Below are positions 3,946 through 49,796 of a stretch of DNA of 64,000 nt, in pieces. A program made the translations under genes and the position numbers. Source of the DNA: Nocardioides panzhihuensis (lineage in GTDB: Bacteria > Actinomycetota > Actinomycetes > Propionibacteriales > Nocardioidaceae); assembly GCF_013408335.1 (NCBI RefSeq), contig NZ_JACBZR010000001.1, forward strand, positions 5,047,501-5,111,500, read 5' to 3'. Position 1 is the stretch's first letter, and the number at the start of each line of letters is the position of its first letter. Under the pieces are notes generated by a model. The model made no database searches. It was given only the letters and a program-made list of their open reading frames with translations, and had not been told where the DNA came from.

Positions 3946-3959
3946 ATCCCTTCGAGACG

Positions 3960-3997
3960 AGATCGCCCTCCCCGAGCAGGCTCGGGGAGGGCGATCT
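3960..3997. terminator. Bidirectional terminator hairpin
   Basis: A perfect 17-bp inverted repeat (AGATCGCCCTCCCCGAG / its complement) with a CAGG loop lies between two convergent genes. It is GC-rich at the core and is followed by short T runs, so it could end transcripts from both sides. Confidence 0.85.
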
Positions 3998-4017
3998 CTT
4001 GTCAGCTCAGACGGCGG

Positions 4018-4236
4018 TCAGAGCTTGGAAAGCTTGGAGAAGGGGCTGGCGATGCGCACCAACCGGGGACCGAAGTCGACAGTGACTGCGGCCGTTTCTT
4101 TGTTGACGACCCGACCCAGGCCGAAGGAGTCGTGGGAGACCAGGTCCCCACACTCGAACTGCTCAATGACCGGCTCGGGATCTGCCTTGAAAGGACTCGC
4201 GGCGAAGTGTCGCCGCCGGGGGGTTGAGGTAGTCAT
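4018..4236 (-). CDS. Small conserved protein with a Tudor/SH3-like barrel (hypothetical)
   Basis: Encodes 72 aa with a basic N-terminus (TPRRRHF) and a core FECGDLVSHDSFGLGRVV followed by AVTVDFGPRLVRI. The pattern GD-V-H-x-x-FGLGxV resembles the small beta-barrel found at the C-terminus of UvrD/PcrA helicases and in CarD-like proteins, which bind RNA polymerase or nucleic acid. It is too short for CarD. A role as an RNA-polymerase- or DNA-associated factor is an inference from this resemblance. It converges on the oxidase/RidA pair across the shared terminator. Confidence 0.75.
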   Translation of the reverse strand: MTTSTPRRRHFAASPFKADPEPVIEQFECGDLVSHDSFGLGRVVNKETAAVTVDFGPRLVRIASPFSKLSKL

Positions 4237-43228: not shown

Positions 43229-43631
43229 AACCGCATTCCTGAACCATTGCCGTCGCGGTGCCGGCGCGGGAGAATTGAACGTTGCCGGGCGGGGTGGTCA
43301 TCCCCTCACCGCCCCGCCCGGCCCACGTCGCAGCGCGGTGACCGCGCCGTCGAGGCCCCGCACGTGGGTTGGGCATCCCCCTAGTGCCCAACCCACGCTG
43401 CGGCCCCGAAACCGCCTGCCTCCCCCAAGGCGGCGGCGCCAGCGCCCGAACCGAGTTTCCCCCGAACCTCGGCCCGGACAGCCCCAAGGAGTACGCGGCT
43501 CGCCGCCTGATACAAGGTCTCCCAGGATTTCTTGACGCCCTGCTCCGGCCGACCGCCAGCACATCCGACAGCTCGAAACGAGTTGACTCGTTCCTCTCCA
43601 GGTGCCGCACAGCGTCACTACCCTGCTTGGC
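43229..43631. other. Structured non-coding region upstream of DUF5317
   Basis: No credible gene is present. Two strong hairpins occur: GCCGGGCGGGG / CCCCGCCCGGC (43284-43294 and 43312-43322) and the perfect 13-bp CGTGGGTTGGGCA / TGCCCAACCCACG (43363-43375 and 43385-43397) with a 9-nt loop; the second can be extended imperfectly by flanking GGCC/CCGG sequence. The first could be the terminator of the acyltransferase gene. A structured transcript cannot be excluded. The rest is unremarkable. Confidence 0.5.
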
Positions 43632-44246
43632 ATGCCCGGTCCAGGAATGCTCACGCTGATGGTGCTGCCAGCAGTTATCGGACTCATCATCGTCGCCCGC
43701 CCGAACGTTGCGACCTCTCTGACGAGCCTGCGCGGGACATGGCTGATCGTTCTTGCCGCAGCGCTTCAGTTCGTGCAGATCGAGGGATGGTGGCCCGAGC
43801 AGGTCACAGAATCTCTAGAGCGGCGCCTCTACGCGGTCTTGGTCGTTGTCATCGCGCTCGCGTTCAGCTGGCTCAATCGACCGCTTTGGTCTCGCGGTAT
43901 CGGGCGATGGGCATTGGTTCTCATTCCTCTCGGCACGGCGTCGAACTCGATACCGATCGCCGCTCTTGGCGCAATGCCGTACAGCCTCACCGGGGCACGA
44001 ACGGCCGGATACTCCCAAGCGCAGCTGATCACGGACGCCCCTGGCTACATCCGCCTGGACGATGTGTCGCCACTCTGGACGCCGCTTGCAGATCTCATCC
44101 CGATCCCGTTGCTGATGAAGGTTCTGAGCATCGGCGATCTGTTCTTGATCGCAGGCCTGGTGCTGCTGATAGTCGCGTCGTCTCGCCCACAGCAACCTCC
44201 GGTTGCGGCTGACGATCCGGTTCATCCCGCCCGGACTTCAGCTTGA
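43632..44246 (+). CDS. DUF5317 membrane protein
   Basis: Encodes 204 aa with about five membrane segments (LTLMVLPAVIGLIIVA, TWLIVLAAALQFVQ, YAVLVVVIALAFSWL, GRWALVLIPLGTASNSIPI, SIGDLFLIAGLVLLIV) and the conserved-looking YSLTGARTAGYSQAQLIT. The N-S-I-P and L-G-D-x-F elements are features of DUF5317 proteins. The ATG at 43632 lies 7 nt after TACCCT and is preferred to a GTG at 43602 and ATG at 43647. It is followed 38 bp downstream by a 35-aa peptide gene. The function is unknown; pairing with small peptides suggests processing or export, which is inference. Confidence 0.78.
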   Translation: MPGPGMLTLMVLPAVIGLIIVARPNVATSLTSLRGTWLIVLAAALQFVQIEGWWPEQVTESLERRLYAVLVVVIALAFSWLNRPLWSRGIGRWALVLIPLGTASNSIPIAALGAMPYSLTGARTAGYSQAQLITDAPGYIRLDDVSPLWTPLADLIPIPLLMKVLSIGDLFLIAGLVLLIVASSRPQQPPVAADDPVHPARTSA

Positions 44247-44284: not shown

Positions 44285-44392
44285 ATGAGCACGAACGGAC
44301 TGAAAGCACGCGCCTACCTTGCGGCAACCACCAGTGTCACCACGGCACTGGCGATCTACGCCTTCGCAGCGCCACACAACAAGCCCAACTAG
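44285..44392 (+). CDS. 35-aa membrane-like peptide
   Basis: Encodes 35 aa: short basic start (MSTNGLKARAY), a 17-residue apolar stretch (LAATTSVTTALAIYAFAA) and a polar end (PHNKPN). It has a strong ribosome-binding site (GAGAGGAGGAACAG before ATG), lies 38 bp after the DUF5317 gene and is followed by a terminator, so it is likely translated. It resembles a signal or transmembrane peptide with a Pro-Asn tail, such as a signalling or toxin peptide, but no homologue is recognised. Confidence 0.7.
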   Translation: MSTNGLKARAYLAATTSVTTALAIYAFAAPHNKPN

Positions 44393-44452: not shown

Positions 44453-46885
44453 CTATGAGAAGCAGACGAAGGGGGCCGGCGGGGCGTCCGTGGTCGCCGC
44501 CGGGAGGGACTCGGCGAGGGCCTCGGCCGGGGCCAGGCCCTTTGCCAGAGCTTCGTGGAGGCGGCTGAACACCGCGTACGCAGCCTCGTCCGCTACAACC
44601 GCGGGCGAGGCGATCACGGCGCGGGCGCCGGCGTGGAGCCAGGCGCCGACCAGACCGATCAGCTCCTCGCCCCAGCGGATCGTCGAGCGGCCGACCTCGC
44701 AGGCCGAGAGAAGGACGACGTCGGGGACAGCGGCGAGGCCGTCGATGTCGTAGCCGTACCAGGTCCCGTCGGCGAGCTCGAGCCCGGAGAAGAGCGGGTT
44801 GTCGGCGGAGTGGTGGCCGTGGGCGGCCAGATGGAGTACGTCGACCTCGGCAGCCAGCGCGGAGACGGCCGCCGCGGTGGCGTCGGCGCCGGTGAGCGTG
44901 CGAGAGCCGGACCAGGCTGTTGCGCTGTGGGTGACCTCGTCGGCGGCACGCATGACCCGCGGCCCGGCGACGAAGCCTGCCGTCTTCGCACGCAGCGGGG
45001 CATCCGCGCGGCCCAGCCAGGCGGTGGCACTCTGGGCGACCGTCACCGGCCGGCCGGTGAAGCCGGACAGCAATGTCCACGGCACCGCGGCCAGGACGGC
45101 CGAGGGCGTCAAGACGACGGGCCGGTCACCGATGCGCTCGAGGATCGGGGTGACGAGCAGGTCTGAGAGCTGCCGGAGCCGGGCGGTCAGGTCACCGCGT
45201 ACGGCAGCGCCCAGCGGACCCGGTAGATCGGTCGCGGCGACGTCGAGGTCCGGCAGCAGGCCGCCCAGGAGGGACCCGAGCGCGGACTGGTCGCCGAGGT
45301 CGATCCGCGCCGAGGAGTCATCGGTCGCGACGACGGCGACGATCCGACCCGCGGCGACGACGTAGGCGACGAGCGCATGGCTGCCGATACGTTTGCGCAG
45401 GTCAGGGAGAGAGATCGGATCCGAGACCTGGCCCGATCCCTTGACCCGCCAAGCGCGCTGGCGGATCTGCTCGCGCAGCACGGCCTCGCGTTCAGGCTTC
45501 ACCTCGCCACGCAGCTCGGCCAGGTCGGCGACCAGCTGAGGATCGGACGGCGGCCGCACCGGCTGGACCCGCGAGGCCAACATCCGGGAACGTTCCGACC
45601 ACTCGAAGAGCACGTCCGTCTCCCCGGACTCGACGGCCAGTTCCAGGCCACGCCTGGCCAGTGTCCGGCCGTGGCCGGCGACGTTGGTCTGCAGGTCCAG
45701 GCTGCCGAACGAGCTCTGCCACAGATGGAAGTCGTCGAGTCCTGCCCGGAGCTCACGGAGCCCGCTGACGGCCCGGCCCGCGGCGACGGCGAGCTCCGCA
45801 CGCAGCTCGCGTTCGAGAAGGCGGATGTCGATAGGCGCTTCCGGCGGCACCGGGCCGATGACCCTGCCGCTCGCAGGTCTTGTGGGTAGGTCGGCGTTCT
45901 CGGCCGAACGAATGCGCGCCAGCCGGGCCTGCATACGCACCCGGAGCGCCGGCCAGCTCAGTCCTTGCTCCTCCAGCGGACCGGCCAGCGCCTCGCCTTC
46001 CTCGCTCGGATCCTGGCCTGCAGTCACGGCTGCCTCGAACGCCACCGCCCGCGCCCGCAGCGCCAAGCCCGGCGCCTTGGCCTCTTCGAACCAGCCCAGC
46101 GCAGAGCGCGCCACTCGGTGCGCCTCGGTCGGGTCGGTCGCGACCAAGTGCGAAGCGAGCGCCAGCTCGGCTTCTCCCTGCCGCTGCCGCTGCCCCTTCG
46201 ATCCGTACGCCTCGGCCGCCTGCCGCAACATCTCGCCACCCTGCCGCGTCAGCCCCGCCGCCATCAGTACCTCTGCGCGGTCGGCGTCGCAGACGGCCTT
46301 GATCAACGGACCACCGGATGCCTGAACTTCGTACGACGATTCCATCAAAGCAAGAGCACCGACCAAGTCACCAGACAGAAACAACGCATAGGCCCGATTA
46401 TGATCGGCCTGCGCGGCCGCGATGGGCTCGCCCGAGGACCGGTATCGCTCTGCTGCCGCCTCGAAATCCTGGGCCGCTTTCACGGTGTCGTGGCGATCGA
46501 GATGAACGGTCCCTCGGTTGAGGTACGCCTTGGCAAGGTCGAGCGGCAAATCTTCGAGGGACGAGATCGCGTCACCGAAAACGTTCAGCGCTTCAGCCGC
46601 GCGACCAGCCCGTCGCAGGAGTAGTGCGCGTTGCGCCAGAAGCACTCCGCTGGTCGGCCCCTCGACGCCAAACTCGAGCGCGCGGGCGTTCTTCTCCAAG
46701 GCGACACTCAAATTGGAGTCGTCCGCCTCGAGATAGGCCAGTGATGACTCGATCCGAACGAGGACAGCAGGTTCATTCGCAACCTTGAGGGCGCGCTCTA
46801 AGAGCGACCTCGCAATGTCGAGGTTGCCTGCCCTAAGTGCCGCGACACCCTGTCTGTGCAGCTCGTCCGGACCGTGAGCCGTCAT
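44453..46885 (-). CDS. TPR-CHAT caspase-like protein
   Basis: Encodes 810 aa. The N-terminal half is helical TPR-like (GNLDIARSLLERALKVANEPAVL and similar units to about residue 420). The C-terminal ~300 residues are a CHAT domain, a caspase/separase-fold peptidase: H689 in VLHLAAHGHH and C729 in VLLSACEVG form the expected His-Cys dyad, and WGEELIGLVGAWLHAGARAVIAS follows. It starts 4 nt inside the end of the subtilase gene, so the two are translated together. CHAT proteases act in bacterial cell death and phage defence. Target unknown. Confidence 0.9.
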   Translation of the reverse strand: MTAHGPDELHRQGVAALRAGNLDIARSLLERALKVANEPAVLVRIESSLAYLEADDSNLSVALEKNARALEFGVEGPTSGVLLAQRALLLRRAGRAAEALNVFGDAISSLEDLPLDLAKAYLNRGTVHLDRHDTVKAAQDFEAAAERYRSSGEPIAAAQADHNRAYALFLSGDLVGALALMESSYEVQASGGPLIKAVCDADRAEVLMAAGLTRQGGEMLRQAAEAYGSKGQRQRQGEAELALASHLVATDPTEAHRVARSALGWFEEAKAPGLALRARAVAFEAAVTAGQDPSEEGEALAGPLEEQGLSWPALRVRMQARLARIRSAENADLPTRPASGRVIGPVPPEAPIDIRLLERELRAELAVAAGRAVSGLRELRAGLDDFHLWQSSFGSLDLQTNVAGHGRTLARRGLELAVESGETDVLFEWSERSRMLASRVQPVRPPSDPQLVADLAELRGEVKPEREAVLREQIRQRAWRVKGSGQVSDPISLPDLRKRIGSHALVAYVVAAGRIVAVVATDDSSARIDLGDQSALGSLLGGLLPDLDVAATDLPGPLGAAVRGDLTARLRQLSDLLVTPILERIGDRPVVLTPSAVLAAVPWTLLSGFTGRPVTVAQSATAWLGRADAPLRAKTAGFVAGPRVMRAADEVTHSATAWSGSRTLTGADATAAAVSALAAEVDVLHLAAHGHHSADNPLFSGLELADGTWYGYDIDGLAAVPDVVLLSACEVGRSTIRWGEELIGLVGAWLHAGARAVIASPAVVADEAAYAVFSRLHEALAKGLAPAEALAESLPAATTDAPPAPFVCFS

Positions 46886-48363
46886 TGTTTCAGCGTCGTG
46901 AGATCTTCAACGGCCGCCCACGCGCGATCGACGTCTCGCTCGAGGTCACCGGCCTCGCCGTTATCAAGGAGGTGCTGCGCGATCCGACCGGCAAGCAACG
47001 GCGCCGCAAACGACGTCCCGCTCCATGTGCCGAAGCCGCCACCGAAATCGTCCGGATCCAGGGTCTCTCGCTGTCGCTCGTCGTACTCCGTTGCGATTGT
47101 CGCCTGGTAGCCACCGTCGAAGGCAGTGGGGAAAGTGCTGACGACACCCACGCCGAGCTCGAATGCGCGAACCCACGGACCGGCGTTACTGAAGATCGCG
47201 TCTGTTCCATTGGGGTTGAGGGCCCCGACAGAAACGATCGGCAATCCGTCGCCGGTCGTCGACACCGGGCAGTCTCCGTTGATCCATGGAGCGAATGCTG
47301 CGGGGAAGTTCGGGCGCGACGTGGCGTCATTGCCTGCCGAGCACACCACCAGCGTTCCGTTCGCTGAAAGGTCAGCAAGGATCTCCGACAGCATCGGATC
47401 GAACAGCGCATCCTCGGGTGTCTCGTGGTAGTACCCGATCGAGAGGCTGAGCACGTCGATCCGGCGCCCGCGTGGGTCCCCTTGGCGGTAGAGGTGCACT
47501 AGTTCGGCGATCTGCGCCAGCGCCGTAAGCCAGCCGAACTCTGCAACTGGCCCCTCTGGCGGGACGATCCGCCAGGCATAGATGTCGGCATCGGGGCACG
47601 CCTGATGAATCAGCCCCGTGATGAACGTCCCGTGTCCAGCCATCGGATCAATCAGGCCGTCGAGGGGCCCAACCAGGTCGCCGTCAACCTCCGAATTCGG
47701 CACATCCGGCGACCATCCAATCCGATGTTCACCGAGTCGCACGTCCCGCTCAACGAAGCCCAGCCAGGGGTGCTGTCCACAGCCCGTGTCTAGCACTGCA
47801 ACCACCGGGCGGGTCCTACCCCCGATCTGCTCGTCGGTACGCCGACTCGGCGGAGCTCCGACATACGCGACCGGCTGCCGCCCACCGGTTCCCAGCGGGT
47901 CGTATCCACTCCTCGGGTGCGGGTCGTTATGGGGATGCGGGTCGTTGTGCGGGTGCGGGTCGTTGTGCGGAACGGGGATAAGCACGTGCTCAAGGCTCAC
48001 GCCGCGAGCACCGTCGACGCCGTCGGCTCGAAGAAACTGGAGGAGTGTCCACGCGTCCGGAGCCGCGACTGCCTTCCCCGGGACAACGCCGAGACGAATC
48101 CTGCGCACGCCGAAGCGCAGATCCCTCGCATGTTCCGGCTCGGGCTCAACCTCGGCACGCCAGTTCAACGACTTCGCCACCTTCGAGACTCGGCGGAACG
48201 CGTCATCGAAGTCGACCGACTTCGAGATCAAGAGAGTTGTCGACGAATAGATGGTCGAACGTGCCGAGACCCCGTCGACCGCGACCGCGTTGGTCGGGTC
48301 GAGGACGCGCGCTTCGGTCGTTCCGTATGCCACCGACAGGCGGGGCTCACGCTTGGGATGCAC
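46882..48363 (-). CDS. Cytoplasmic S8 (subtilisin-like) serine protease
   Basis: Encodes 493 aa. The catalytic triad is intact: D192 (VVAVLDTGCG), H244 (AGHGTFITGL) and S451 (SGTSFAAPLLAG), with the oxyanion Asn in VVCSAGND. There is no signal peptide or pro-domain that would export it, so action is inside the cell. Residues ~132-149 are a HNDPHP repeat encoded by an 18-bp tandem repeat. Base use is less GC-rich at third positions than neighbours, hinting at transfer. GTG start with AGGAGTAACA ahead of it; overlaps the CHAT start by 4 nt. Confidence 0.9.
   Translation of the reverse strand: MHPKREPRLSVAYGTTEARVLDPTNAVAVDGVSARSTIYSSTTLLISKSVDFDDAFRRVSKVAKSLNWRAEVEPEPEHARDLRFGVRRIRLGVVPGKAVAAPDAWTLLQFLRADGVDGARGVSLEHVLIPVPHNDPHPHNDPHPHNDPHPRSGYDPLGTGGRQPVAYVGAPPSRRTDEQIGGRTRPVVAVLDTGCGQHPWLGFVERDVRLGEHRIGWSPDVPNSEVDGDLVGPLDGLIDPMAGHGTFITGLIHQACPDADIYAWRIVPPEGPVAEFGWLTALAQIAELVHLYRQGDPRGRRIDVLSLSIGYYHETPEDALFDPMLSEILADLSANGTLVVCSAGNDATSRPNFPAAFAPWINGDCPVSTTGDGLPIVSVGALNPNGTDAIFSNAGPWVRAFELGVGVVSTFPTAFDGGYQATIATEYDERQRETLDPDDFGGGFGTWSGTSFAAPLLAGRIAQHLLDNGEAGDLERDVDRAWAAVEDLTTLKQ
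47915..47968. repeat. 18-bp tandem repeat in the S8 protease gene
   Basis: Three units of GGGTGCGGGTCGTTRTGS (18 bp each) encode HNDPHP three times in the linker between the N-terminal domain and the protease domain. The His/Asp content suggests metal binding or a flexible spacer. A unit count that varies between strains would be expected. Confidence 0.8.
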
Positions 48364-48375
48364 TGTTACTCCTGG

Positions 48376-48885
48376 TCAGATCTCGAACGTGGGGGTCAGA
48401 AAGGCCGCGGAGCCGTCGGCAGGCTCGAAGCGGAGCCGGATGAGGCCGGCGGGGAGCGAGGTGAGCTCGAAGCGCCCCGAGGCGCCCAGCGTGACAGCGA
48501 CGATCGGCGTACGCACCGAGTCGGCGCGGATGGCGCGGACGGTCATGGGCGTGCCGGGGACGACCCAGCCGTCGAGGCGGGCGGTGGTGTCGGTGTCGGA
48601 GGCGACGCGGACGAGCACGTCGACGCCGGACTGCGCGAAGCGCAGCGTGTAGGCCGAGCGGGCCTCGAGCGGGGACGCGGAGCGAACCCCGGCCGTCTCA
48701 GCGCCCGAGGACTCCACCAGGAGCATCAGCTCCAGGTCGAGCCCGAGGCCGGAGTCCTCGGCGGCGCCGGCGGCAGCCGCCTGCATTCGGGAGATCAGCC
48801 CGCCGGGTACGGGGTCGCCGGCGACGTACGCCTGTCGAACCAGACCCAACAGCTCCTCGCGACTGGGCTCCTCCGAGCGACCCAT
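48376..48885 (-). CDS. Beta-sandwich (carboxypeptidase-regulatory-like) partner protein
   Basis: Encodes 169 aa. The N-terminal helical part (SREELLGLVRQAYVAGDPVPGGLISRMQAAA) is followed by a C-terminal beta region: GWVVPGTPMTVRAIRADSVRTPIVAVTLGASGRFELTSLPAGLIRLRFEPADG, which resembles carboxypeptidase regulatory-like/transthyretin folds (the LPxGxxRLRF strand). It has no membrane helix, so it is not a typical membrane anti-sigma factor. The ATG shares the A of the sigma stop codon (TGATG). It could regulate the sigma factor or recruit a substrate to the protease; both are inference. Confidence 0.8.
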   Translation of the reverse strand: MGRSEEPSREELLGLVRQAYVAGDPVPGGLISRMQAAAAGAAEDSGLGLDLELMLLVESSGAETAGVRSASPLEARSAYTLRFAQSGVDVLVRVASDTDTTARLDGWVVPGTPMTVRAIRADSVRTPIVAVTLGASGRFELTSLPAGLIRLRFEPADGSAAFLTPTFEI

Positions 48886-49496
48886 CACGACACCTCCCCA
48901 TTGTCGAGCAGAGTACGAAGCGAGTCCCGCAGCTTCCCGAGACAGCGGCCGCGGGTGGGGCCGATGCTGCCGATGGGCATGTCGAGCTCTTCGGCGAGAC
49001 CGGCGTAGTCGGGCCGGTCGGAGAAGGCAACCACGCGCACCAGCCGTCGGCATCGCTCGGGCAGGCCCTCCACGGCCGCCCAGATGCGCGAGTTGAGGTC
49101 GCCCTCGACGACCAGGGACTCGGCCGAGCGCTGTGTCGGAACGCGGGACTCCAAGGCCTCGTCCTCCACAGGTACGTCCCGCCCGGAGCGCTTCGCGACC
49201 CGCCAGGCCTCACGGCGGGTGGTCAGAGTGAGCCAGGCGCCGACGGCCGCGGTGTCGAGGATGGAGGAGTGCTTGCGTACGAAGGTGAGCCAGGTGTTCT
49301 GGACGACGTCCTCGGCCTGCTCCTGGCTGAGCCGGTAGGAGCGCGCTATCTGCCACAGGATCGGGGTCATCGTCGCGACCAGCTCGTCGAGAGCGGTGGA
49401 GTCACCGCTGAGCCAGCGGTCGAAGTCGGCCGTGGCCCGGGACCACACGGTCGCAGGTGTGTCGGCATGACCCACCTCACGTCTTACCCGTGTCAC
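48885..49496 (-). CDS. Sigma-70 family (ECF-like) sigma factor of the CHAT operon
   Basis: Encodes 203 aa. Region 2 has TMTPILWQIARSYRLSQEQAEDVVQNTWLTFVRKHSSI and AVGAWLTLTTRREAWRVAKRSGR; region 4 has LPERCRRLVRVVAFSDRPDYAGLAEELDMPIGSIGPTRGRCLGKLRDSL. It lacks the SnoaL-like domain of the ECF41 protein at 22436 and has no obvious anti-sigma gene next to it. The GTG at 49496 follows GAGGAGGGGACT; the frame open to 49631 has no signal ahead. It heads the four-gene operon and overlaps the next gene by 1 nt. Confidence 0.88.
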   Translation of the reverse strand: MTRVRREVGHADTPATVWSRATADFDRWLSGDSTALDELVATMTPILWQIARSYRLSQEQAEDVVQNTWLTFVRKHSSILDTAAVGAWLTLTTRREAWRVAKRSGRDVPVEDEALESRVPTQRSAESLVVEGDLNSRIWAAVEGLPERCRRLVRVVAFSDRPDYAGLAEELDMPIGSIGPTRGRCLGKLRDSLRTLLDNGEVS

Positions 49497-49796
49497 AGTC
49501 CCCTCCTCGACCGGCGGCCTCCGGGTCGGCGCCGAGCCGGTGGGGGGCCAGATGACGCGCGGGCGCGTCATCGTGGTGGTCATGGTTGCTGTCACGGCCC
49601 CAAGGAGGCCCAGGCCCCAGCCGTGATACATCTGGCCGCCGACAATAGCGTCTCAATGCGTCAGACTCACCAGCAATCGGTGGTCGGACTCGTCGAGACC
49701 GTCTTATCGGGTGGTCTCGACAAGCTCGACCACCGACATCCAGAGCGGGACCACCGGGGATTCGGCCCTACCGCCAGAGCGGGTAGCCTTCTGCGG
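49497..49796. other. Gap between the CHAT operon and femAB
   Basis: This divergent intergenic stretch contains the operon promoter region, an ACCATCATGGTG-like GC run and the REP-like element at 49711-49734. No gene with a credible start is present. On the right, TAGCCT (49784-49789) is a -10 for femAB, 7 nt before its GTG. Confidence 0.4.
49711..49734. repeat. REP-like element (copy 2)
   Basis: GTGGTCTCGACAAGCTCGAC (49711-49730) and CACC following match the element at 40193-40216. Nearby ACTCGTCGAGACC (49688-49700) is an imperfect inverted relative, so the two could pair. It lies between the CHAT operon and femAB. Confidence 0.8.

Follow-up and report, generated by a model that had tools for sequence, protein, structure and literature searches.

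A hexapeptide array in a subtilase zymogen covaries with the TPR domain of a neighbouring CHAT protease in an ECF54-like operon

Organization of the operon

The window analysed here is a stretch of 64,000 nucleotides of the genome of Nocardioides panzhihuensis. Four of its minus-strand genes form one tight operon:

48885..49496, minus strand: ECF sigma factor gene, 203 aa, GTG start, ECF54-like by its context
48376..48885, minus strand: BS, a small soluble protein with a weak match to CarboxypepD_reg (beta-sandwich)
46882..48363, minus strand: S8 subtilase zymogen, leaderless, 493 aa, D192/H244/S451, Pfam S8 E=4.7e-17
44453..46885, minus strand: TPR-CHAT protease, 810 aa, H689/C729, Pfam CHAT E=6.3e-26, TPR_2 E=2.2e-9

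The BS gene overlaps the sigma gene by 1 nt, 12 nt separate the BS and S8 genes, and the CHAT gene overlaps the S8 gene by 4 nt; these coordinates bear out the leftward four-gene operon, with the same junctions, described in the initial annotation. The sigma factor scores above the ECF cut-off of TIGR02937 (52.1 bits versus 42.9). The Pfam match of BS (PF13620, E=0.042) lies below the cut-off and its matches in the PDB are weak (best E 0.047); the CHAT and S8 sequences gave no PDB match at the thresholds used. Judged by hydropathy, S8, BS and the sigma factor have no strongly hydrophobic segment. By the overlap of its gene with the sigma gene, BS is a candidate sigma partner and could be an anti-sigma factor.

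Both sets of catalytic residues, which had been reported as complete, are indeed intact across the order: in the alignment of 36 loci the S8 triad D192/H244/S451 is kept in every one, and the CHAT dyad H689/C729 in 34 of the 34 rows which have residues there, the other 2 being gapped.

Distribution of the gene set

At E<=1e-20, S8 is found in 36 of the 196 genomes of the order. All 36 of these loci have a CHAT match, while sigma and BS are each matched in 34 (for BS, using a profile cleaned of overlapping frames), so that the conserved co-occurrence on which the initial annotation had staked its reading does exist. The gene set is widespread across the phylum. Three loci (L126, L132, L144) contain BS, S8 and CHAT without a sigma match, and in three others (L048, L061, L134) S8 and CHAT stand alone in the fetched stretch; the same holds for L163, but there the contig begins inside S8. 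Because some S8-CHAT loci are devoid of a sigma match, the sigma output is not universal. An apparent natural fusion of sigma and BS in L045 looks like a frameshift and was set aside.

A hexapeptide array in the subtilase

The structural model of S8 (m22dc7416007a, pLDDT 79) resembles pro-subtilisins and PCSK9. Between the predicted prodomain and the catalytic domain lies an array which the first reading of the sequence had overlooked:

47980..48255, minus strand: S8 prodomain, aa 37-128, propeptide-like fold
47914..47970, minus strand: hexapeptide array, unit PHNDPH, 3.2 copies, aa 132-150, low model confidence (disordered)

A tandem hexapeptide array is present at this junction in 106 of 116 loci, with a copy number ranging from 2 to 12.7; among 18 distant S8 loci it is absent from 9. 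The unit varies between species and is identical within each protein. At the level of codons, adjacent copies differ by 738 synonymous versus 18 nonsynonymous changes, and 35% of the compared codons differ synonymously while the amino acids are the same. Because arrays were detected through amino-acid identity, the count is biased, yet this bias could hardly account for 738:18 when a 3.5:1 nonsynonymous excess is expected.

Covariation between the array and the TPR domain

The following features of the CHAT protein of the window are needed here:

45968..46885, minus strand: TPR superhelix, aa 1-306, the proposed reader of the hexapeptide
46529-46531, minus strand: codon of K119 in the TPR
46409-46411, minus strand: codon of Q159 in the TPR

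Covariation with the unit was calculated after excluding S8 proteins at or below 250 bits, those devoid of a period-6 array and loci lacking a CHAT protein above 400 bits; 104 pairs became 101 when units without an initial P were dropped, and finally 95. At z>=5, the TPR gave 15-18 hits in 1,275 tests and the S8 catalytic domain 3-5 in 1,020, against 0 of 525 in the prodomain, 0 of 1,015 in the CHAT domain and 0-1 of 985 in the middle region (Fisher tests on these counts: 2e-5 and 2e-8). Linkage alone should favour S8, which lies closer to the array than does the TPR.

The signal is clearest for charge. When position 4 of the unit is compared with TPR residues 119 and 159, opposite charges outnumber equal ones 29:0 and 32:0, and these two residues rank above all others among the 1,734 non-array columns in the four proteins. 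Residue 119 is K or R in 26 of 29 loci with an acidic unit and residue 159 in 28 of 29, versus 0 of 16 loci with a basic unit for either. Column 119 also ranks first of 810 for complementarity in 49 disjoint closest pairs, and in three near-identical pairs K and D are exchanged at 119 along with the charge of the unit; among the 12 closest pairs differing in unit charge, L158/L139 and L163/L134 keep their charge at 119 and 159. In L175 two S8 genes adjoin a single CHAT gene, and their units, PFGKTN and PFTRTN, have equal charge at position 4.

Unit position and TPR residue number are inversely related (rho -0.53 to -0.65, p 0.0015-0.006, at z>=4 and z>=5), with a gradient that is non-monotonic for unit positions 4 and 6. 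An enrichment of covarying columns in the inner A helices was considered and is a trend only, not significant (at z>=5, 9 of 108 A versus 3 of 101 B columns, p=0.14; at z>=4, 11 versus 8, p=0.64; p=0.13 and 0.26 at the other threshold).

Some results are less specific to the TPR. At one threshold the largest z of all, 9.5, is that of W278 in S8; when the comparison is restricted to the columns that vary least, the TPR is not enriched relative to the S8 catalytic domain at z>=4 (4/355 versus 5/320); and under plain permutation (80 loci) W738 of the CHAT domain ranks fourth among the non-array columns. Coarse clustering gives z>=5 counts of 57/1,270 for the TPR, 35/1,025 for the S8 catalytic domain, 29/970 for the middle region, 16/530 for the prodomain and 15/980 for the CHAT domain, counts which are inflated at unit position 2 by the PHN clade of the window; for the z>=5 counts given above, this clade was cut from 7 to 1.

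The TPR-CHAT structure matches Csx29, separase and the LGN TPR with bound peptides. As the TPR covaries with the hexapeptide array of S8, we concluded that it probably reads this array. The TPR is thus no abstract sensor of a signal, as had been proposed; the coupling of the two proteases, proposed at the same time, is supported by the covariation.

Divergence of a putative specificity cassette

46250..48363, no strand assigned: divergent specificity cassette, i.e. the S8 gene and about the first 200 CHAT codons

When compared to the near-identical genome L099, the cassette has 55-74% DNA identity, whereas the sequences outside it have 88-99%. The lower GC noticed earlier in S8 and in the CHAT 5' region is confirmed (0.648 and 0.658, versus 0.733 for BS and 0.726 for the CHAT 3' part). 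The divergence is limited to S8 and the CHAT 5' part, as in a swapped specificity cassette.

The mobile origin formerly read into these data did not hold for the operon as an element, and cassette divergence was retained instead: the plasmid collection has one record with both S8 and CHAT, an 11.85-Mb Nonomuraea record, the phage collection has one 7.5-kb unannotated record with an S8 match, and an alanine-racemase-like gene recurs on the sigma side in at least 29 of 80 named loci. Searched with PADLOC for known anti-phage systems, CHAT, BS and sigma had no match at E<=0.01 and S8 had generic subtilase and IetS matches only.

Small peptides adjoining the operon

Convergent with the CHAT gene, we noticed a very small gene overlooked in the first reading:

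43602..44246, plus strand: DUF5317 membrane protein gene, upstream of the tiny peptide gene
44285..44392, plus strand: tiny peptide gene, 35 aa, a moderately hydrophobic segment followed by C-terminal PHNKPN

In a few genomes, tiny peptides with a C-terminal hexapeptide of the array class adjoin the operon; the DUF5317 gene is also next to the peptide in L097, L039, L163 and L259. A profile of the S8 units was run against 15,474 ORF C-termini: 8 of these score at least 9 bits, and all 8 are operon-adjacent tiny peptides. The tail equals the unit of its own locus at 6 of 6 positions in L125 and L139 and at 5 of 6 in L138, when 0 and 0.06 such cases are expected by permutation over 89 loci. Only L125 and L139, whose peptides are Pro-rich and not of the membrane type, show exact identity. 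Membrane-type peptides fit the local unit poorly (PHNVPN versus PVEISH in L259, PYNHGH versus PFHASN in L039), and the peptide of the window has K at position 4 despite K119 in its own TPR.

A search for the membrane-type family in the 196 genomes gave two strong matches, both in the genomes that built the model, the other 18 matches at E<=0.1 being weak and partial. The idea of such a peptide in every genome was abandoned: PHNxPx followed by a stop has 3 matches in 5 genomes and the backward control also 3; only the operon-adjacent place of the match in G000 stands out. The pattern P[FYLH]Hx..N followed by a stop was matched once in 25 genomes, by a sequence ending in the codon TGG, and its control gave 13 matches.

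Discussion

The association of these genes is already published as the ECF54 context: in PMC8999054, which cites Casas-Pastor 2021 and Huang 2015, an ECF sigma factor accompanies carboxypeptidase, subtilase and CHAT genes and proteolytic control is proposed. We find an ECF-type sigma factor, a subtilase and a CHAT protein here, and a carboxypeptidase only as a weak regulatory-domain match, which is why the ECF54 "carboxypeptidase" is probably the BS protein. The ECF54 group is characterised by the lack of an anti-sigma factor, whereas BS, by the overlap of its gene with the sigma gene, could be one here. The ECF54 portion of that text contains no array, reader TPR or allelic cassette, and in the open-licence literature we found no description of the array, of its covariation with the TPR or of the divergence of the cassette.

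We propose, and think it rather probable, that the operon encodes a cytosolic proteolytic relay in which two proteases are wired together by a strain-specific hexapeptide barcode. S8 would be made as a zymogen in which several identical hexapeptides separate prodomain and catalytic domain. The hexapeptide would be read by the TPR, in whose groove it would probably lie antiparallel, and TPR-CHAT would thereby dock on the zymogen at its maturation site, as the covariation suggests. Upon a trigger, CHAT may cut or release the junction and free the subtilase, which would in turn act on BS and/or the sigma factor and change transcription, an output step comparable to that of TPR-CHAT/Csx30/CASP-sigma. 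Where they are present, the hexapeptide-tailed peptides might compete for the same TPR site. The need for reader and barcode to fit each other would make S8 and the TPR diversify jointly, as one cassette.

Several known systems share parts of this scheme. Craspase (Csx29, Csx30, CASP-sigma; PMC10028731) has the TPR-CHAT fold with its His/Cys dyad, to which a second, barcoded protease is added here. The EACC2/caspase systems, for which a conflict role is proposed, join a caspase-type protease, an ECF sigma factor and a TPR gene in one neighbourhood, but their domain families are different and the relevant part of PMC8195603 mentions neither a subtilase nor a hexapeptide array. Pro-subtilisins and PCSK9 share the prodomain and catalytic fold of the S8 model, whose D/H/S triad is that of the S8 family, but S8 has tandem hexapeptides at the junction and no visible secretion signal. 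In RRNPPA systems (Rap/Phr, AimR; PMC9765709, PMC11343458), the TPR has hexapeptide ligands, and small propeptides carry a C-terminal hexapeptide, some with repeats; here the TPR covaries with hexapeptide units and is a putative binder of them. In our operon a CHAT protease domain is part of the same polypeptide as the TPR, and it is the partner enzyme, S8, that contains the hexapeptide in tandem copies. RRNPPA receptors are not known to include a protease domain.

The docking could also be inhibitory: TPR-CHAT would hold the subtilase inactive, or each would hold the other, until an incoming hexapeptide-tailed peptide releases it as in RRNPPA, whose TPR receptors are established to bind C-terminal hexapeptides (PMC9765709, PMC11343458). 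The operon-adjacent position of all eight high-scoring C-termini and the tails identical or nearly so to their own unit point in this direction; however, the peptides occur in few genomes, exact identity concerns two Pro-rich peptides and the membrane-type search recovered strongly only its own model-building genomes, and we regard this explanation as unlikely. Less probable by far, to our mind, is that the proteases merely degrade the sigma factor and keep its level low, as suggested for ECF54 in section 3.3 of PMC8999054, the array being no specific reader site: this leaves the array, the selection on it, the TPR covariation and the cassette divergence unexplained, and some S8-CHAT loci have no sigma match. 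Finally, a mere flexible proline-rich linker, repetitive through slippage, would suit the low model confidence, variable copy number and frequent absence of the array in distant loci, but we consider it most improbable in view of the synonymous differences between copies, their ratio (hardly due to detection bias) and the TPR covariation.

Returning to the barcoded relay, a six-residue password which varies between strains, and by which one protease seemingly recognises the other, suggests a self-recognition or immunity switch. It is conceivable, if doubtful, that the operon is a bacterial switch for allorecognition or immune surveillance, in which strains exchange, as one cassette, a polymorphic zymogen barcode together with the TPR-CHAT reader that fits it. 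Small peptides with a hexapeptide tail, either the cell's own or foreign ones coming from kin, competitors or phages, would test this match or short-circuit it, and so trigger or block the protease cascade.

There would thus be, in many actinobacteria, a readable specificity code between two proteases, made of one unit residue and two TPR residues of opposite charges, and the unexplained ECF54/TPR-CHAT systems can therefore be probed directly with peptides and single-residue exchanges. Should the diversification serve immunity or kin recognition, bacteria would have a counterpart of polymorphic recognition loci; otherwise, a ready candidate set of orthogonal protease-docking pairs would still be at hand.

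The operon and its distribution

The operon consists of four genes, all read leftward, and the junctions described in the initial annotation are borne out by reading the coordinates on the window.

Genes of the operon in the window
49496-48885, leftward (-), ECF sigma factor (sigma), sigma70-ECF family
48885-48376, leftward (-), small soluble protein (BS), sole family match CarboxypepD_reg, below threshold
48363-46882, leftward (-), subtilase zymogen (S8), S8 subtilase family
46885-44453, leftward (-), TPR-CHAT protease (CHAT), TPR and CHAT domains

The window's own genome has one match to the CHAT family and one to BS. An inverted-repeat-like stretch lies 5' of the sigma gene (49660-49760) and is perhaps the REP-like element noted earlier.

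S8 was found in 36 of 196 genomes of the order (at E<=1e-20) and in 55 of 215 genomes of the genus. The expected co-occurrence of the four genes was recovered: CHAT matches in all 36 order loci, sigma in 34 and BS (cleaned match) in 34, two loci (L048, L061) having neither sigma nor BS match. In the phylum, where a CHAT relative at E<=1e-10 occurs in 50 of 396 genomes, 20 regions from outside the order were taken around the better CHAT matches; 14 of them match all four profiles and 18 contain an S8. The catalytic residues are likewise intact across homologues, D/H/S of S8 in 36/36 loci and H/C of CHAT in 34/34 ungapped rows. From the 401 relatives found by a named scan, the best 80 were retained; in the resulting set of 116 loci (36 from the order plus these 80, some genomes being counted twice), the script output gives the order SIG-BS-S8-CHAT in 65 and S8-SIG-BS-CHAT in 12. 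Most of the remaining orders are artefacts, produced by long ORF starts, contig ends, duplications or losses. Since an alanine-racemase-like neighbour lies in the fetched flank of at least 29 of the 80 named loci, the operon occupies a recurrent place. Three loci (L126, L132, L144) retain BS-S8-CHAT with no sigma match, and BS may therefore not be only a sigma partner. Additional diverged BS copies lie 5' of the sigma gene in L129, L143 and L043/L149, and one S8 homologue (G776:C1:4589763-4591245) is seemingly broken, in two pieces with one internal TGA.

TPR columns covary with the hexapeptide unit

We calculated the mutual information between the residues of the S8 hexapeptide unit and the columns of the four proteins in 80 loci. 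The three best non-array columns all belong to the TPR domain (T126, K119, Q159); the fourth is W738, in the CHAT domain. In a stricter run (95 loci, permutation restricted to clusters of related sequences, the window's PHN clade reduced to one member), the tests reaching z>=5 at two thresholds were 15-18 of 1,275 in the TPR, 3-5 of 1,020 in S8 catalytic columns, 0-1 of 985 in the middle region, 0 of 1,015 in the CHAT domain and 0 of 525 in the prodomain (Fisher p for the TPR excess 2e-5 and 2e-8), the top single z at one threshold being S8 W278, outside the TPR. At z>=4, the two more variable entropy bins give 15/480 and 14/390 for the TPR vs 4/305 and 1/285 for S8 catalytic columns; the least variable bin shows no TPR excess (4/355 vs 5/320).

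Unit position and TPR residue number are negatively related (at z>=4, rho is -0.60 with p 0.002 and -0.53 with p 0.0015), the pattern that a peptide lying antiparallel in the TPR would give, positions 4 and 6 departing from the gradient order. Two successive A helices of a model (114-130 and 154-170) carry residues 119 and 159, respectively, at their sixth position; A-helix enrichment across all covarying columns is only a trend.

TPR residue 119 is K/R in 26 of 29 loci with an acidic residue at unit position 4 and in 0 of 16 with a basic one; residue 159 is K/R in 28/29 and 0/16. Opposite and same charges stand at 29:0 for 119 and 32:0 for 159, the two largest charge differences of 1,734 non-array columns (CHAT, S8, sigma, BS), the next being 26, at S8 position 3. 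Over 49 disjoint closest pairs, complementarity is strongest at column 119 among 810 columns, with a score of -13 against a mean of -0.08 (sd 1.5), and column 159 shares second place. Three pairs of near-identical loci change both residues: unit Q/R accompanies K/D at 119 in L225/L224, R/D accompanies D/K in L098 and the window, and K/E accompanies D/K in L100/L097. Unit charge differs in 12 of the 49 pairs; in two of these, L158/L139 and L163/L134, the charge changes at neither 119 nor 159. One locus, L175, has two subtilases (PFGKTN, PFTRTN) and a single TPR-CHAT gene, with the same position 4 charge in both units.

A divergent S8-TPR cassette

Between the window and its relative L099, identity is 98% for sigma, 99% for BS and 98% for CHAT 301-430, and falls to 71-73% for S8 and 53% for TPR 1-150; the comparison stops within the CHAT gene, where the L099 contig ends. 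DNA identity by block start is 97% (48750), 89% (48500), 63% (48250), 55-74% onward and 92% (46250). The low-GC stretch of the initial annotation coincides with this cassette. Against L259, the values are 94% for sigma and BS, 36/50% for S8, 34% for TPR 1-150, 93% for CHAT 301-430 and 68-78% for later CHAT. The units of the eight genomes of the window's clade are all different. S8 and TPR move jointly, and a common history could therefore imitate covariation; S8 prodomain and catalytic columns, which move with the array as well, covary far less with the unit than the TPR does. In each of two loci (L203, L206), a single region carries two S8-CHAT modules that differ in unit, PFTSGG in one and PLYDGH/PMYDGH in the other; across the two loci, the corresponding modules group by unit (TPR 61-62% vs 36-39%).

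Small peptides with hexapeptide tails

Short ORFs adjoining the operon have C-terminal hexapeptides that belong to the same class as the S8 units.

Hexapeptide-tailed peptides
Window 44285-44392, membrane-type, PHNKPN
L097, membrane-type, PLNDPH
L039, membrane-type, PYNHGH
L163, membrane-type (two), PVEHGN and PIERSN
L259 6014-6121, membrane-type, PHNVPN
L125, between BS and S8, Pro-rich, PFEDPH
L138, between BS and S8, Pro-rich, PYEEPH
L139, between BS and S8, Pro-rich, PYDEGH

A DUF5317 gene accompanies the membrane-type family. Of 56 loci in which the BS-S8 gap was measured, just four have one longer than 170 nt: L125, L138, L139 and L175, the last with its second S8 there. At >=9 bits, a C-terminus profile made from 81 S8 units, those of the peptide-bearing loci included, retains 8 of 15,474 ORF C-termini, all eight of them hexapeptide-tailed peptides; among the controls, a single reversed C-terminal hexamer and 3 internal hexamers out of 27,478 pass. 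A further 60 loci, with 5,380 C-termini, add 5 that score >=8 bits, four being such peptides (three from already known loci refetched, one new, L259) and the fifth, a 91-aa ORF of L203, probably a chance match. A model of the peptide family matched strongly in only two of 196 genomes, both of them in the model, with no other strong copy.

By permutation over 89 loci, the tail equals the locus's own unit (6/6) in two loci vs 0 expected, agrees at 5/6 in one vs 0.06, and at 4/6 in three (window, L061, L155) vs 0.86, the L155 ORF being likely due to chance. In L061, an S8-CHAT locus, the upstream ORF (3955-4155) ends in TKTVGG, adjacent to a TKTIGV array. Membrane-type tails match their own unit poorly, and those of the window and L259 fit their own S8 units badly. 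Position 4 of the tail in the window is K despite K119 in its own TPR; the sister allele L100 (unit PHNKPN, D119) would suit it. This mismatch, with the predicted fit to the sister allele, seeds a bolder reading.

Relation to earlier work

The association of sigma factor, subtilase and CHAT protein is not new, since the genetic context of ECF54 is described as containing conserved proteins with carboxypeptidase, subtilase and CHAT domains, and control of ECF54 by proteolytic enzymes has been proposed (PMC8999054, section 3.3). A recognition code within this known neighbourhood is apparently unreported: what is new here is the covariation of the proposed TPR reader with the unit, together with the divergent cassette.
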